Assembly (NCBI GenBank): GCA_016932115.1
Contig: JAFGDM010000104.1
Coordinates: 1-43,539 of the forward strand
Source of the DNA: Deltaproteobacteria bacterium
GTDB taxonomy: Bacteria; Desulfobacterota; DSM-4660; Desulfatiglandales; HGW-15
Reading direction: 5' to 3'
DNA: 43,539 nt
Shown here: in pieces, positions 4,669 through 43,539 of the stretch
Numbering within the stretch: position 1 is the first letter of the stretch
Layout: every line of letters begins with the position of its first letter
The notes under the pieces: generated by a model
Told to the model about the DNA's origin: nothing
What the model saw: the letters and a program-made list of their open reading frames with translations, nothing else
Database searches by the model: none
Made by a program: the position numbers and the translations under genes

Positions 4669-4754
4669 TGATTCGTCCGTCCTTTCAAATAAATGGTATC
4701 GACCGCTCCCGGAGAGTTTCGATCATGAAGGAAACCCTTGTGAATAGACCAAAA

Positions 4755-5024
4755 CTATTTTCGAAGCCCCAATTCCCTGATGATGTTTTGATATCGTTGG
4801 ACATCCGTCCTTCGTAAGTAGTTAAGAAGTCGCCTTCTTTGACCGACCAATTTCAACAAGCCTCTTCTTGAGTGATGATCCTTCTTGTGAGTCTTGAAAT
4901 GTTCCGTGAGGTAATTGATGCGGTTGCTCAAAATGGCAACCTGCACTTCCGGGGAACCCGTGTCCTTGTCATGCAGCTTGAAACGATTGATAATTTCTTT
5001 CTTTCCCTCTGGGTTGAGAACCAC
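4755..5024 (-). CDS. rpsO: 30S ribosomal protein S15
   Basis: Primary 16S rRNA-binding protein of the small subunit platform. The 89-residue length equals that of E. coli S15, and the family core [15 protein letters not shown] and the C-terminal RELGLRK are present, along with the TGSPEVQ segment near the N-terminus. The start is GTG at 5024, chosen because a strong AAGGAGGT lies seven bases upstream. The 104-base gap to truB contains no clear promoter. S15 commonly represses its own mRNA through a leader structure, but I could not identify one with confidence here. Confidence 0.98.
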
Positions 5025-37749: not shown

Positions 37750-38196
37750 TCAGACCTCAAAATCTACTTTGATTTTAAACATGCGAACGGCGGGTAGGCT
37801 GTGCACATCTTTGATGCCCGTGATTTCGGATATTTCCTTGAGAGCACTTTCAATCGTGACTATCCTGGGAGCGATAAACGTGAACCACACGTTGTATTCA
37901 TGGTTTCTTAGGTAATTGTGGGTCACACCGGGATAACGGTTCACGACCTCCACAAATCGTTTAAGCTTTTTCTGCGGGACTTTCGCGGCACAAAGCGTAC
38001 TCCTGTAATCAAGCTTTTTGGAGTGGAAGTTTCCCCCAATACGGCGGATAACCCCCTCCTCCTTGAGTCTCCTAATTCGGAGAAAAACCTCATCCTCAGG
38101 AAGATCAAGGCGCTTACCCAGCTCCCTGTAGGGCCTCTGGGCAATGGGAAATCCTGATTGAATCTCATTCAGGATCTCTCGGTCCCGGTTATCCAT
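37750..38196 (-). CDS. Siroheme decarboxylase subunit (AhbA/AhbB, AsnC/Lrp fold)
   Basis: A 148-residue protein with an N-terminal winged-helix segment (MDNRDREILNEIQSGFPIAQ) and a C-terminal ferredoxin-like AsnC domain. The conserved block PGVTHNYLRNHEYNVWFTFIAP and the ending RMFKIKVDF mark the siroheme decarboxylase/NirDGHL family and not a general Lrp regulator. AhbA and AhbB together remove two carboxyl groups from siroheme to give 12,18-didecarboxysiroheme. By its NYLR...YNVWFT pattern I lean to the AhbA type. The start at 38196 overlaps the ahbD stop by eight bases, with AAGGA before it; a start at 38361 would lie inside ahbD. The second subunit is not in the window. Confidence 0.85.
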   Translation of the reverse strand: MDNRDREILNEIQSGFPIAQRPYRELGKRLDLPEDEVFLRIRRLKEEGVIRRIGGNFHSKKLDYRSTLCAAKVPQKKLKRFVEVVNRYPGVTHNYLRNHEYNVWFTFIAPRIVTIESALKEISEITGIKDVHSLPAVRMFKIKVDFEV

Positions 38197-39265
38197 AGGT
38201 CCTTCTCTTTGCCGGTTGATACATACAAAGCGGCTCTTCTTCCAGAAAATCCCCTGACGCTTCATAGGCCCGCGCACGGCACCCACCGCAGAATTGTAAA
38301 TACTCGCACCGGCCGCATTTGCCCTTGTAGGCCGAAAAATCTCGAAGACTCCGAAACACATCCGAATTGTCCCAAATATCTCGAAAGCTTGATTTGTTCA
38401 AATCCCCACAGTTGACTTCGAGGTAGCCGCAAGGCTGAATGATGCCCACATGGGAAACGAAGCAGAAGGAAGTTCCTCCCAGGCATCCACGTGTTAAAGC
38501 GTCCAACCCATAGGTGGCATAGTCCACTTTTTCGCCCCTTTTGTGCGCTTCCTCTCGCAGAACCCTGTAGTAGTGGGGAGCGCATGTAGCTTTCAGGTGG
38601 ATAGGCACTCTCCGCCTCATGGAACAAAACCAATGGAGCAGCCGTTCATACTCCGATGCATCAATCTCCTGATCAATCATATCCCTGGCGCGGCCTGTGG
38701 GCACAAGTAAAAAGATGTGGTGGGCGGCAGCGCATAACTGCACAACCAGGCGAAGAATGTCTTCCGCCTGCCCAACGTTGTGCTTCGTAATCGTCGTGTT
38801 GATTTGGAATTCAATCCGGCCCTTTTTTAGAAGATTGATTCCATCCATGGCTCCTTGAAATGCTCCGGGAACCTTCCTAAACCGGTCGTGCTGCTCCTGA
38901 TTTGCCCCATCCAGGGAGATGCTTACTCGCTGAATCCCGGATAATCTCATCTTTTCCGTGATCTCTTCCGTGATCAGGGTTCCATTCGTGGCCATGACCA
39001 TTCGAAGGCCTTTGGCGGTTCCGTACCGGGCAAGTTCAAACACATCATCTCGAAGCAACGGTTCCCCGCCGGTGAGGATAACAATGGGTTTGCCCACCTC
39101 TTCGATCTGATCCAGAATTCGGAGGCATCCATCTGTATCCAATTCCCCTTGGCACTGACCCCGGCCGGCTGCAGCCCGGCAGTGGACACAATTGAGATTG
39201 CACTTTCGGGTCACCTCCCAAGCCACAAGACGAAGCCGGTTTTTATTTTGAGCGTGCTCCTTCAT
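38189..39265 (-). CDS. ahbD: Radical SAM heme synthase AhbD-like (NirJ2 type)
   Basis: A 358-residue radical SAM/SPASM-type enzyme. The cluster-binding motif is C22-x3-C26-x2-C29 in RKCNLNCVHCRAAAG, followed by the SAM-binding GGEPLL. An auxiliary cysteine cluster near the C-terminus (KCGRCEYLQFCGGCRARAY, then EEEPLCMY) would hold a second [4Fe-4S] cluster. These match AhbD, which oxidatively decarboxylates Fe-coproporphyrin III to protoheme in sulfate reducers and methanogens. It lies between hemB and the decarboxylase. The ATG has no clear ribosome-binding site. Distinction from the related AhbC rests on the CRAAAG motif and the C-terminal pattern. Confidence 0.85.
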   Translation of the reverse strand: MKEHAQNKNRLRLVAWEVTRKCNLNCVHCRAAAGRGQCQGELDTDGCLRILDQIEEVGKPIVILTGGEPLLRDDVFELARYGTAKGLRMVMATNGTLITEEITEKMRLSGIQRVSISLDGANQEQHDRFRKVPGAFQGAMDGINLLKKGRIEFQINTTITKHNVGQAEDILRLVVQLCAAAHHIFLLVPTGRARDMIDQEIDASEYERLLHWFCSMRRRVPIHLKATCAPHYYRVLREEAHKRGEKVDYATYGLDALTRGCLGGTSFCFVSHVGIIQPCGYLEVNCGDLNKSSFRDIWDNSDVFRSLRDFSAYKGKCGRCEYLQFCGGCRARAYEASGDFLEEEPLCMYQPAKRRTYG

Positions 39266-39392
39266 TTTCGAATCACTGGACCTTGAACGACCGTTCCATC
39301 GTTAGATTCTAATTCTGCGGTTCGGATTTCTTCCCTTGTTACCTTTCCTTCAAGCTATCGGGAATCCGCGAAGCAGGCCGAAAACCGCTCCT

Positions 39393-40376
39393 TTACCGGT
39401 TCCGGTTAAGGAGCCTGGCGGCATCCTTGGCGAAGTAGGTGAGAATCAAATCCGCTCCTGCTCTTTTGATGGAAATCAAGATTTCCATCATGATCCTGTC
39501 TCCATCAACCCAGCCCTTTTCCTGAGCAGACTTTACCATGGCATATTCACCGCTTACGTTGTAGGCCGCCAAGGGCAGAAGACATTCCTCTCTTACCCTT
39601 CTGATAATATCAAGAAAGGCCAGGGCAGGTTTAACCATAATCATGTCAGCCCCTTCTTCCATGTCCAGGATAGCCTCCTTCAATGCCTCCAGTGCATTGG
39701 CCGGATCCATTTGATAGCTCGACCGATCTCCGAACTTGGGAGTTGAATCCGCGGCCTCTCGGAAGGGGCCGTAAAACCCTGAAGCGTATTTCACGGCGTA
39801 GGACAGAATTCCTGTATCCTGAAAACCGGCCAGGTCGAGAGCATTCCTAATGGCCGCCACCCGTCCGTCCATCATGTCCGAAGGAGCAACAAAATCAGCG
39901 CCTGCCTTTGCATGACTGACCGCCTGCCTGGCCAGTATTTCCAGGGTAGCATCGTTGTCTACCTTGCCTTCCTTTATGATGCCGCAGTGCCCGTGATCAG
40001 TATACTCACAAAGACAGATATCGGTCATGACCACTATCTCTTGCAGCTTAGCTTTTATTGAGGAAACAGCCTGCTGCACGATCCCGTCATTTGCGTACGA
40101 TTTGCTGCCGACAGCGTCTTTACAGTCCGGGAGTCCAAATAGAATCACAGCGGGGACTCCGAGATCCCAGGCCTCTATGACCTCTTGAACAATGGTGTCC
40201 ACGGAAAACCGGTACTGCCCGGGCATCGAAGAAATGGGCTCTTTGAGGTTGCGGCCGTGCCTCACAAAAAGAGGATAAATCAAATCCTTCACCGAAAGGT
40301 TTGTCTCTCTCACCATTTCTCGAAGGGTTCTGTTTTGCCTGAGTCGTCTGGGACGAATAATCATGTCAGTCCTCAT
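39393..40376 (-). CDS. hemB: Delta-aminolevulinic acid dehydratase (porphobilinogen synthase)
   Basis: Condenses two 5-aminolevulinate molecules to porphobilinogen, the common tetrapyrrole precursor. The 327 residues hold the two Schiff-base lysines, K196 ([14 protein letters not shown]) and K249 ([13 protein letters not shown]), and the three-cysteine zinc site C121, C123, C131 ([14 protein letters not shown]), so it is the zinc-dependent form. The ATG at 40376 follows GAGGA; an ATG four codons on is possible. It is set inside the siroheme-to-heme cluster, between ahbC and ahbD, with gaps of 158 and 127 bases. Confidence 0.97.
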
Positions 40377-40534
40377 TGGTCATTGGATCGTGATGCGTCC
40401 TGCTTTACCTGTTGCATCTTGCCGGATGATTGTTGTAGGTTCTTTTACGCTTGCCTCTTGAGCGCTTCATGAAACCTTAGTTTCTGCTGTATTCTGTTTT
40501 CCTGAGATTCAGCGTTTTACTCGCTTTCACGCAC

Positions 40535-41728
40535 TTAAGGCACTTCTTCCAACCCGATTTCATGATCAGTGAGATAACAGGCCGGGTCGGGTGCCCACAT
40601 GTCCCCTGAGACGGCCTCTGCGCGAACCCTGAAATTGCCCCCGCAAATGTCAAGCCAGGAACAAAGCGCGCATCTGCCTTTTACGTGCTTTTTCTTATCT
40701 TTCAACGTGTTCAAAATGGGATCGGATGGATCGGTCCAGATCTCACTGAACGGCCTTTCCCGGACATTGCCGAAGCTCAGGTGCCTCCAGAACTGATCAG
40801 CATGAACGCTGCCGTCCCAGCTTATACATCCGAACGCTTTTCCCGAGTTGTTCCCCTCGTTCATTTTTAGAAGCTCCAGGACCTCTTTCGCTCTTGGATT
40901 GCCCTCCCGCACCATGCGCAGATAAAGGTACGGTCCATCCGCATGGTTATCAACAGTGAGCACCTCCTTTGCTATGCCGCGATTATGCAACTCCTTTGTC
41001 CTGTTGATGATAAGATCAACCACCCGCCGGGTTTGTTTCCTGTCAAGGTCTTCCTCAATCAGTTCCGAACCGCGACCTGCGTAAACAAGATGATAAAAGC
41101 ACACCCTTGGGATATCTACCTCTTCCAGAAGGTCGAATATGCGAGGCACTTCCTGCACATTCATCCTGTTAAGCGTGAACCGAAGGCCTACCTTGAGACC
41201 TGCTTCCTGACAGTTTCTTATCCCCTCCACAGCAGCTCTGAATGCGCCCTTTTTACCCCTAAAACGGTCATTGACCTCTTCAAGACCGTCCAGACTGACC
41301 CCCACATAAGATAGACCGACATCTTTTAGCTCTCTTGCCTTGTCTTGTGTAATCAGCGTACCGTTGGTGGAAATCACAGCCCTCATCCCTTTCTGCACAG
41401 CGTACCCGGCAAGATCCGCAAGGTCTTCACGAAACAGGGGCTCTCCTCCGGAAAAAAGAATAACCGGTACGCCGAATGCGGCCAGATCGTCGAGCATCGA
41501 TTGAGCCTCCCGGGTCGTCAGTTCCTCTTCCCGGCTTTGTTCAGAGGCCTTTGCGTAACAGTGGATACATTTCAGGTTACACGCCCTGGTCATATTCCAG
41601 ACCACAACGGGTTTTTTGTCTGAAGAGAACTGAAGGAGATGGGAAGGAAGATCCTTGCAACGGCGACCGTATCGAAGGGCATCCGACGGCTCAACGGTTC
41701 CACAGTAAAGTTTTGAGATTCCGATCAT
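40535..41728 (-). CDS. ahbC: Radical SAM 12,18-didecarboxysiroheme deacetylase AhbC (NirJ1 type)
   Basis: A 397-residue radical SAM/SPASM enzyme. The N-terminus MIGISKLYCGTVEPSDALRYG is diagnostic of the AhbC/NirJ1 group. The cluster motif is C50-x3-C54-x2-C57 (RACNLKCIHCYA) followed by GGEPLF, and the C-terminus holds CALCSWLDICGGNFRVRAEAV with a final PACYL for the auxiliary cluster. AhbC removes two acetate side chains of 12,18-didecarboxysiroheme to yield Fe-coproporphyrin III. It heads the heme cluster, 92 bases downstream of the ClpX-like gene on the same strand. No strong promoter is visible in that gap, so the two may share a transcript. Confidence 0.88.
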   Translation of the reverse strand: MIGISKLYCGTVEPSDALRYGRRCKDLPSHLLQFSSDKKPVVVWNMTRACNLKCIHCYAKASEQSREEELTTREAQSMLDDLAAFGVPVILFSGGEPLFREDLADLAGYAVQKGMRAVISTNGTLITQDKARELKDVGLSYVGVSLDGLEEVNDRFRGKKGAFRAAVEGIRNCQEAGLKVGLRFTLNRMNVQEVPRIFDLLEEVDIPRVCFYHLVYAGRGSELIEEDLDRKQTRRVVDLIINRTKELHNRGIAKEVLTVDNHADGPYLYLRMVREGNPRAKEVLELLKMNEGNNSGKAFGCISWDGSVHADQFWRHLSFGNVRERPFSEIWTDPSDPILNTLKDKKKHVKGRCALCSWLDICGGNFRVRAEAVSGDMWAPDPACYLTDHEIGLEEVP

Positions 41729-41820: not shown

Positions 41821-43530
41821 TCAGTTCACGTCCCCTTTCGGCAAGGAATAAGGCTCGTAGTCCTTCGAACTGTAATGCTTTTTCATGAGATCGTTGATAT
41901 ACTTTTCCATGTTCGTCACCGCTTCCTTGGTAATCAGAAAGCTCTCCATCCCGGATCTGTCTTTGACCAGCTTGAGGCCGTACTCGAGCTTTTTGGCCAC
42001 TTGATAGGCAAGAACCCCTGCTTCTTGATCCGTTTCAATGGCTTTACGAATCAGTTCATCAATAGCTTCATCATCAAAGGTTACCTGGATGTCCGCCTCA
42101 TTGAACAGGGATGTTTCCTCTATTTTAATTTGCTCATAGATCGATTGAAACTCATCAAAAGCTGAATTCACATCGGAAATTCTCTTGAAATAGATTTTCG
42201 CTATGAGGCCGGCCCGAGTGGCCGTGATATCAAGTCCCGAGCGATTATAGAAGTCCTTTGCCCTTGCGAGAATGAAGGCTTTGAGGTTTTCGACCTCTTT
42301 CTCCACGGCCTTTTCGAATCGGACGGCCCGCGCGGAAGAATCGGGGTTTTCCACGAGGGCTTTAAGTTCTTTCTCAGGATCATCCACAAGTTCCGGGGTG
42401 ACCAGAAATCTTTTAATTGTCGTGGACGGCAATTGCTTTTCAAAGAGAAGAAGAACCTTTTCTATAGCGCTGACTAAAGCTCTGGCCCCGGTTTTTTCCT
42501 TTGCAGCCATTTCAGCGATTTTTACCAGGGCCTCTTCTTCAAACCTGACCACGATATCATAAGCTTTGAAATCCATGCGCTTGCTTAACGTGATAGGATT
42601 GTTGGGATTTTTAAGGATCTCTACAAGATCTTCTTTGGTAAGTTCGTCAAAGACAACGATAACCGGAAGTCGACCGACAAACTCCGACTCGAAACCGAAT
42701 TCCACCAAGTCCTGAGCCGTCACTTCCTTCAGGATTTCCCAAGGAATATCCGTTGGCCTCACATCTGCTTCAAACCCTATCCCTTGTTTCTGAAGTCGTT
42801 TCTTGATGATGCCCGCCAGTTCACCAAACGCACCGCTCATGATAAAAAGAATATTCTTGGTATTTACGAGCCGCTTTTCCTTTTTACCGGTCCTTCTGAA
42901 ATGCTCGATTGCCTGAATCTGCGAAACCGCATCGTGAGGAACCTTCAGGTCGACTTCGGTCTCCTCCATGGGTTTCAGGAGCGCTCTTTGGACTCCTGTG
43001 CGAGAAACATCATGACCTATGATGTTTCTCGCCGAGGCTATTTTGTCTATTTCGTCGATATAGATTATGCCGTGTTCGGCTAGGCTGATGTCGTCGTTGG
43101 CCTCGTAGACAAGATCCCGCACAAGATCCTCTACATCGCCGCCCACATACCCGGTCTCACTGAACTTGGTAGCATCCCCCTTTACAAAAGGCACGCCGAT
43201 TTTCTGAGCAATGAGTTTGACGATATATGTTTTTCCAACGCCGGTGGGACCCACCATCAGAATATTGTTTTTGATCATCCCCACGCCGGCCGACTTCTTT
43301 TTCCCTGAAACTTTTCTTAAATGCTTGATTCTGTTGAAATGCGTGCAAACTTTTGTAGCCAGGACTGCTTTAGCGCGGCGTTGTTTGACCACGAAACTGT
43401 CGAGGAACGCCTCGAGATCATCAGGAAGCATGTCGAATTTCACCGGACGGACTTTGGTGTCTCCCGATCGATTCTCCTCTGATTCCACCTCTTGTGCTTT
43501 TGGGAAAATGAAGGGAGAAATAATTCTCAC
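41821..43530 (-). CDS. ClpX-like AAA+ unfoldase lacking the zinc domain, with a C-terminal extension (5' end may lie beyond window)
   Basis: A 569-residue AAA+ ATPase close to ClpX. Walker A is GPTGVGKT (94-101), pore loop GYVG (127-130), Walker B IIYIDEID (155-162), an IGF tripeptide (251-253) where ClpX docks ClpP, and sensor-2 GAR (348-350). It lacks the ClpX N-terminal zinc-binding domain, and the RKH-loop region is replaced by a longer insert (about 188-225). The C-terminus runs about 170 residues past the usual ClpX end. Residues 324-392 (the AAA+ lid) and 479-550 look like two copies of one domain: both start DI-x-V-x-F with acidic residues and EA, and both end FL-V/I-T-x-E with V and EK following. 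The GTG at 43530 may not be the true start, since the frame is open to the window edge. It lies upstream of ahbC. Confidence 0.85.
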   Translation of the reverse strand: MRIISPFIFPKAQEVESEENRSGDTKVRPVKFDMLPDDLEAFLDSFVVKQRRAKAVLATKVCTHFNRIKHLRKVSGKKKSAGVGMIKNNILMVGPTGVGKTYIVKLIAQKIGVPFVKGDATKFSETGYVGGDVEDLVRDLVYEANDDISLAEHGIIYIDEIDKIASARNIIGHDVSRTGVQRALLKPMEETEVDLKVPHDAVSQIQAIEHFRRTGKKEKRLVNTKNILFIMSGAFGELAGIIKKRLQKQGIGFEADVRPTDIPWEILKEVTAQDLVEFGFESEFVGRLPVIVVFDELTKEDLVEILKNPNNPITLSKRMDFKAYDIVVRFEEEALVKIAEMAAKEKTGARALVSAIEKVLLLFEKQLPSTTIKRFLVTPELVDDPEKELKALVENPDSSARAVRFEKAVEKEVENLKAFILARAKDFYNRSGLDITATRAGLIAKIYFKRISDVNSAFDEFQSIYEQIKIEETSLFNEADIQVTFDDEAIDELIRKAIETDQEAGVLAYQVAKKLEYGLKLVKDRSGMESFLITKEAVTNMEKYINDLMKKHYSSKDYEPYSLPKGDVN

Positions 43531-43539
43531 CCGGTTTCC

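Follow-up and report, generated by a model that had tools for sequence, protein, structure and literature searches.

The usual view of ClpX is that of a housekeeping unfoldase present in a single copy and having one lid. In an AAA+ ring it is through the lid that adjacent subunits and ATP state are coupled. In E. coli ClpX most of the contacts with ClpP are made by the IGF loop, sensor 2 comes from the small domain, which packs against the subunit clockwise of it, and a mutant with AAA in place of RKH failed to support the breakdown of an ssrA substrate (PMC7112951). Mitochondrial ClpX activates ALAS through partial unfolding (PMC7077987). The ClpX-like unfoldase gene described here, referred to as XL, shares with ClpX a ClpX-type large domain and lid, the GYVG and IGF loops, Walker A and B, the arginine finger and the sensor-2 GAR, but differs from it in having no zinc-binding domain, a replaced RKH motif and a second lid at the C-terminus.

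XL is the last gene of the window, by which we mean the whole 43,539-nucleotide stretch that was analysed (contig C129 of the source genome), and the coordinates of its features are presented in Table 1. The open reading frame claimed at 41821-43530 was present, on the minus strand, but the GTG at 43530 could not be retained as the start. The frame remains open past the end of the window, and a second contig, C300, whose positions 4726-4812 coincide with the gene's first 87 bases, carries the XL N-terminus absent from the window (...EKLPNQKELEKELSDYLSKKYGNRVRII...), so this GTG is internal. Residues are therefore given for the frame open from the window end (P0001), in which each number is that of the earlier note plus 3. 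Farther upstream of XL, C300 holds a 998-residue minus-strand frame resembling a 997-residue protein found upstream of XL in another locus (L009).

Table 1. Coordinates of XL, its domains and motifs, and the haem genes that follow it; positions are those of the window and residues those of P0001
Feature	Residues	Position	Strand	Basis
XL gene, 5' end cut by window end		41821..43539	minus	open frame, 572 aa visible (P0001)
AAA+ large domain, ClpX type	35-297	42649..43437	minus	Pfam AAA_2 3.6e-26; top PDB matches ClpX
Walker A, GPTGVGKT	97-104	43228..43251	minus	sequence; T99-T104 invariant (alignment A2)
Pore-1 loop, GYVG	130-133	43141..43152	minus	76/76 members
Walker B, IIYIDE	158-163	43051..43068	minus	D162, E163 invariant
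Stretch replacing canonical pore-2/RKH loops, ...PHDAVSQIQAIEHFRRTGKKEKR...	196-226	42862..42954	minus	alignment to PDB ClpX
IGF loop tripeptide, ClpP-docking motif in ClpX	254-256	42772..42780	minus	[ILVM]GF in 76/76
Lid 1 (small AAA+ domain)	301-397	42349..42639	minus	Pfam ClpB_D2-small 297-360 (GTG numbering)
Helical insert	402-456	42172..42336	minus	Desulfobacterota members read; absent in Verrucomicrobiota, Latescibacterota
Lid 2 with leading helix (repeated core 483-557)	457-557	41869..42171	minus	self-alignment, predicted structure
ahbC, 12,18-didecarboxysiroheme deacetylase, next downstream of XL		40535..41728	minus	TIGR04546 747 bits, cut-off 650
hemB, porphobilinogen synthase		39393..40376	minus	NF006762
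ahbD, heme b synthase		38189..39265	minus	TIGR04545 546 bits, cut-off 500
ahbA, siroheme decarboxylase alpha subunit		37750..38361	minus	NF040708 177 bits, cut-off 140 (query 37750-38247)

The solved structures nearest to XL in the PDB were ClpX chains, by sequence as by fold. In an alignment of 69 XL sequences the residues required of an active ClpX-type ATPase, namely the Walker A and B motifs, the glutamate and arginine of the E.EF.GR motif and the sensor-2 GAR, were invariant. Among 76 XL proteins GYVG, an IGF-type tripeptide and GAR were each present in all 76, the Cys4 zinc pattern in none and RKH in one, while the counts in 70 canonical ClpX sequences were 70 for GYVG, 63 for the IGF-type tripeptide (same pattern), 69 for the zinc pattern and 68 for RKH. 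The two loops described in the earlier note as retained, and the zinc domain described as missing, thus hold across the family; for the window protein the absence of the zinc domain was confirmed on the N-terminus carried by C300. The same note had suggested that substrates are recognized differently. This suggestion is supported by a further point, absent from that note: 75 of the 76 proteins have lost the RKH motif.

With respect to family membership, the window protein scored below both ClpX equivalog cut-offs (NF003745, 317 versus 359 bits; TIGR00382, 282.5 versus 370.75 bits), as did XL of the other carriers checked under the ClpX equivalog cut-off. A tree built from 53 sequences placed XL in a single clade (support 99/95) apart from ClpX (100/98), which bears out the view that it is a ClpX relative distinct from ClpX proper. 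HslU (TIGR00390) shares with XL the wording of the ATKF.E.GYVG and DVSR.GVQR motifs and the absence of a zinc domain. XL nevertheless has the IGF loop that HslU is without, shows no insertion of I-domain size when compared with the HslU of its own genome, reaches only 160.9 of the 362 bits of the HslU cut-off and lies in a separate clade of the tree.

The similarity of the two C-terminal segments, aligned by eye in the earlier note, was confirmed by the profile-profile comparison which that note had proposed. Family profiles built from the 76 members (residues 301-397 versus 468-554) were aligned by hhalign with a probability of 98.7, a score of 82.7 and an E value of 3.6e-16 over 71 columns; profiles from the first 19 sequences alone had given a probability of 98.2. 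In controls, 150 column shuffles scored 11.1 +/- 2.2 (maximum 16.8), the reversed profile 10.7, and windows of the same protein that did not reach the lid scored 8.8-16.1. With single sequences and 200 shuffles each, Smith-Waterman self-comparison gave the minimum p value (1/201) in 54 of 76 members, with a median z of 7.8, a z of 6.8 for the window protein and a z of 19.7 for the best member (L179). Chance similarity of the lids was ruled out by the shuffle controls.

Structure prediction for the monomer, the other check proposed, agreed with this result. An AlphaFold2 model based on the 69-sequence alignment (pLDDT 88, pTM 0.85; lid blocks about 78-98) is predicted to have the same strand-helix-helix-strand-helix-helix order in lid 1 (E330-333, H335-348, H353-372, E377-380, H382-386, H388-397) and in lid 2 (E485-488, H490-503, H507-529, E533-536, H538-542, H544-557), with elements of near-equal length (4, 14, 20, 4, 5 and 10 residues versus 4, 14, 23, 4, 5 and 14). 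Prediction from the single sequence reached a pLDDT of 34. The duplicated unit begins at the 'GI.L.F' strand, and there is no clear repeat of the two helices that open the lid (302-325). The boundaries of lid 2 in P0001 are 457/468-557.

As to the origin of the second copy, a canonical ClpX profile aligned lid 2 to its own lid (columns 325-398) with a probability of 92 and a score of 46.2, the query being nearly the whole ClpX profile and not the lid alone. The match of lid 2 to lid 1 of XL is the stronger one, and it runs on through the terminal helix 388-397, which is not aligned to canonical ClpX and before which the match between canonical ClpX and XL lid 1 stops. On both grounds we read lid 2 as a degenerate copy of XL's own lid. 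The sensor-2 GAR is found in lid 1 only, at 351-353, as had been claimed; since lid 2 does not have this arginine motif, we infer from its sequence that it should not supply sensor 2. Few columns of lid 2 are invariant overall, although A492, G521, L522 and F534 are nearly so.

The two lids are separated by an insert of about 55 residues in the Desulfobacterota members read and by only a few residues in Latescibacterota. When compared with the first half of lid 2, the insert gave an hhalign probability of 70.6 and a score of 24.6 (shuffles 9.8 +/- 2.0, maximum 18.8), and it may possibly be a half-lid derived from a further partial duplication. A match of Pfam DUF6775 to residues 438-503 (E 0.024) fell under the cut-off.

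To describe the distribution of XL we searched genomes with the family profile, accepting matches at E <= 1e-140 or, in the Latescibacterota set, at E <= 1e-130; the counts describe a sample and not a census. The three phylum sets were those of the source genome, assigned to Desulfobacterota on the strength of named relatives, of a Verrucomicrobiales genome and of a Latescibacterota genome. XL was present in 118 of 247 Desulfobacterota genomes, with one match each, in 35 of 145 Verrucomicrobiota and in 41 of 60 Latescibacterota. Of a further 30 genomes, of other origin, one contained XL; this genome was labelled Deltaproteobacteria. Lid 2 was present in divergent members of several families, which were read individually. 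Canonical ClpX above its cut-off was encoded in all ten XL carriers checked and ClpP in nine of nine. In the source genome clpP and clpX lie together on contig C197 with genes read from sequence as tig and lon, and because this locus is separate XL is an additional paralogue. No lid-duplicated ClpX relative was found described in the open-licence papers covered by our literature search. XL is an extra relative of ClpX, undescribed in those papers.

Two further explanations were rejected. The open frame and the invariant catalytic residues rule out a pseudogene, and the occurrence of the same architecture in many independent genomes rules out an assembly artefact. A mobile-element gene found no support in the phage and plasmid collections searched, where only ClpX-type matches were obtained and none covered at least 80% of the query; the top match of a viral fold search, aligned over 367 columns, was a protein of 401 residues and too short to hold both lids. 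XL is a core chromosomal gene of many sulfate-reducer, Latescibacterota and Verrucomicrobiota genomes.

Directly 3' of XL in the window (37750-41728) lies a row of genes of the alternative haem pathway, in the order ahbC, hemB, ahbD and ahbA; the true start of ahbA is probably internal, near 38247. When the 247 Desulfobacterota genomes were searched for AhbC (TIGR04546, E <= 1e-170), 80 contained both genes, and in 54 of these, from 21 family-level groups, ahbC was on the same strand and no more than 1.5 kb downstream of XL. In the remaining 26 the two genes were mostly on different contigs, so that adjacency there could often not be judged. Co-occurrence of XL and AhbC gave a Fisher p value of 3e-8 but is confounded by shared ancestry and is not taken to prove a function. 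At the threshold used AhbC was not found in 38 of the 118 XL-bearing Desulfobacterota genomes, and in Verrucomicrobiota and Latescibacterota no haem gene of the ahb operon was found next to XL; haem enzymes are therefore not the general client of XL. The conserved order of XL and ahbC establishes a linkage; it does not establish a client relation.

Other neighbours recurred in other lineages. Elsewhere in Desulfobacterota, dnaJ was found directly downstream of XL at 11 loci and a LonC-like protease at 8. In several loci (L227, L228) XL was followed by dnaJ within a few bases, with the LonC-like protease farther down. A gene with an NFACT_N domain was divergent from XL in 12 of 16 Latescibacterota loci and possibly ties XL to ribosome quality control. 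In the loci L175-L189 of this phylum the divergent gene carries NFACT N-terminal domains and is RqcH-like. These contexts point to general protein quality control, with haem synthesis as a lineage-specific tie.

We consider it fairly probable that XL represents a distinct ClpX-type subfamily working beside canonical ClpX, a ClpP partner or remodeller with other clients and a structural or adaptor-like second lid. From its motifs we infer that XL would form a hexameric ring, driven by ATP and with unfolding activity, in which the GYVG pore loops would pull clients and the IGF loops would dock ClpP and hand clients to the same ClpP as is used by ClpX, or that XL would remodel its clients without degradation. 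For the docking of ClpP, the conserved IGF loop is indirect evidence. Clients which are ssrA-tagged or delivered by SspB should not be taken by the known route, because XL has neither a zinc domain nor RKH. Likely surfaces for clients or adaptors are the conserved N-terminal helix, the altered insert in the pore-2/RKH region and lid 2 at the C-terminus. The second lid would have arisen early in the XL clade and, having lost the sensor-2 arginine motif, could not serve an ATP site. Its role is most likely structural, and by packing on lid 1 or on the neighbouring subunit it would stiffen the ring or present clients at its rim. The proposal in the earlier note, an extra lid that serves as adaptor or hexamer brace, is a plausible one. 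If XL acts in this way, a second ClpX-type machine is at work in many Desulfobacterota, Latescibacterota and Verrucomicrobiota, and a sister subfamily with a doubled lid is a natural experiment on the use of lids in AAA+ rings.

In Desulfobacterota the enzymes encoded by the adjacent ahb genes might, speculatively, be one class of client, and the linkage to ahbC supplies a concrete first client hypothesis. Like mitochondrial ClpX, XL would then be a ClpX-type unfoldase tied to haem synthesis, a tie that is established for the mitochondrial protein (PMC7077987) and proposed for XL, where it consists of gene order alone and concerns different enzymes (AhbC, HemB and AhbD in place of ALAS). A bolder form of the same reading, which we hold only tentatively and think unlikely as a whole, is a second ClpXP-like machine, spread across lineages and with a client code of its own, in whose hexameric ring the catalytically silent lids would form an extra tier. 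This tier would take over from zinc domain and RKH loop as a platform for clients or adaptors, and in sulfate reducers the machine would control or repair the enzymes of the siroheme-dependent haem pathway.

An alternative is that XL is a remodelling chaperone independent of ClpP and dedicated to particular clients, for example the enzymes of haem synthesis, with lid 2 as the dock for client or adaptor. The conserved ahbC linkage, the mitochondrial precedent of ALAS activation through partial unfolding (PMC7077987) and the absence of clpP among the recurrent neighbours of XL are in its favour. However, the IGF-type tripeptide kept by all 76 proteins would be needless in a protein that does not use ClpP, the sole relative without an IGF sequence (L211) is also without lid 2, and many carriers have no AhbC or no linkage to it, so we regard this explanation as doubtful. 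That lid 2 is merely left over from evolution, with a role limited to stabilization of the C-terminus, we consider improbable. Its catalytic sensor-2 motif is gone and its sequence changes faster than that of lid 1, as in a leftover, but its spread through divergent members in three phyla, its near-invariant positions and its single clear absence (L211) suggest that it is under selection. Descent of lid 2 not from lid 1 but from a second AAA+ module (D2), whose large domain would have been lost from an ancestor with two rings, is very improbable: two-module Clp ATPases with D2 lids do exist (ClpA, ClpB and ClpC) and Desulfobacterota have extra residues between the lids, but these residues form a helical insert weakly like lid 2 with no large domain, the Latescibacterota lids almost adjoin, and lid 2 matches XL lid 1 through its terminal helix and better than it matches canonical ClpX, these being the two lids compared.

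L211 itself (G251:C42) comes from a Verrucomicrobia genome, where it is the second copy of XL; to judge by its sequence, it looks as if lid 2 and the IGF tripeptide had been lost together.
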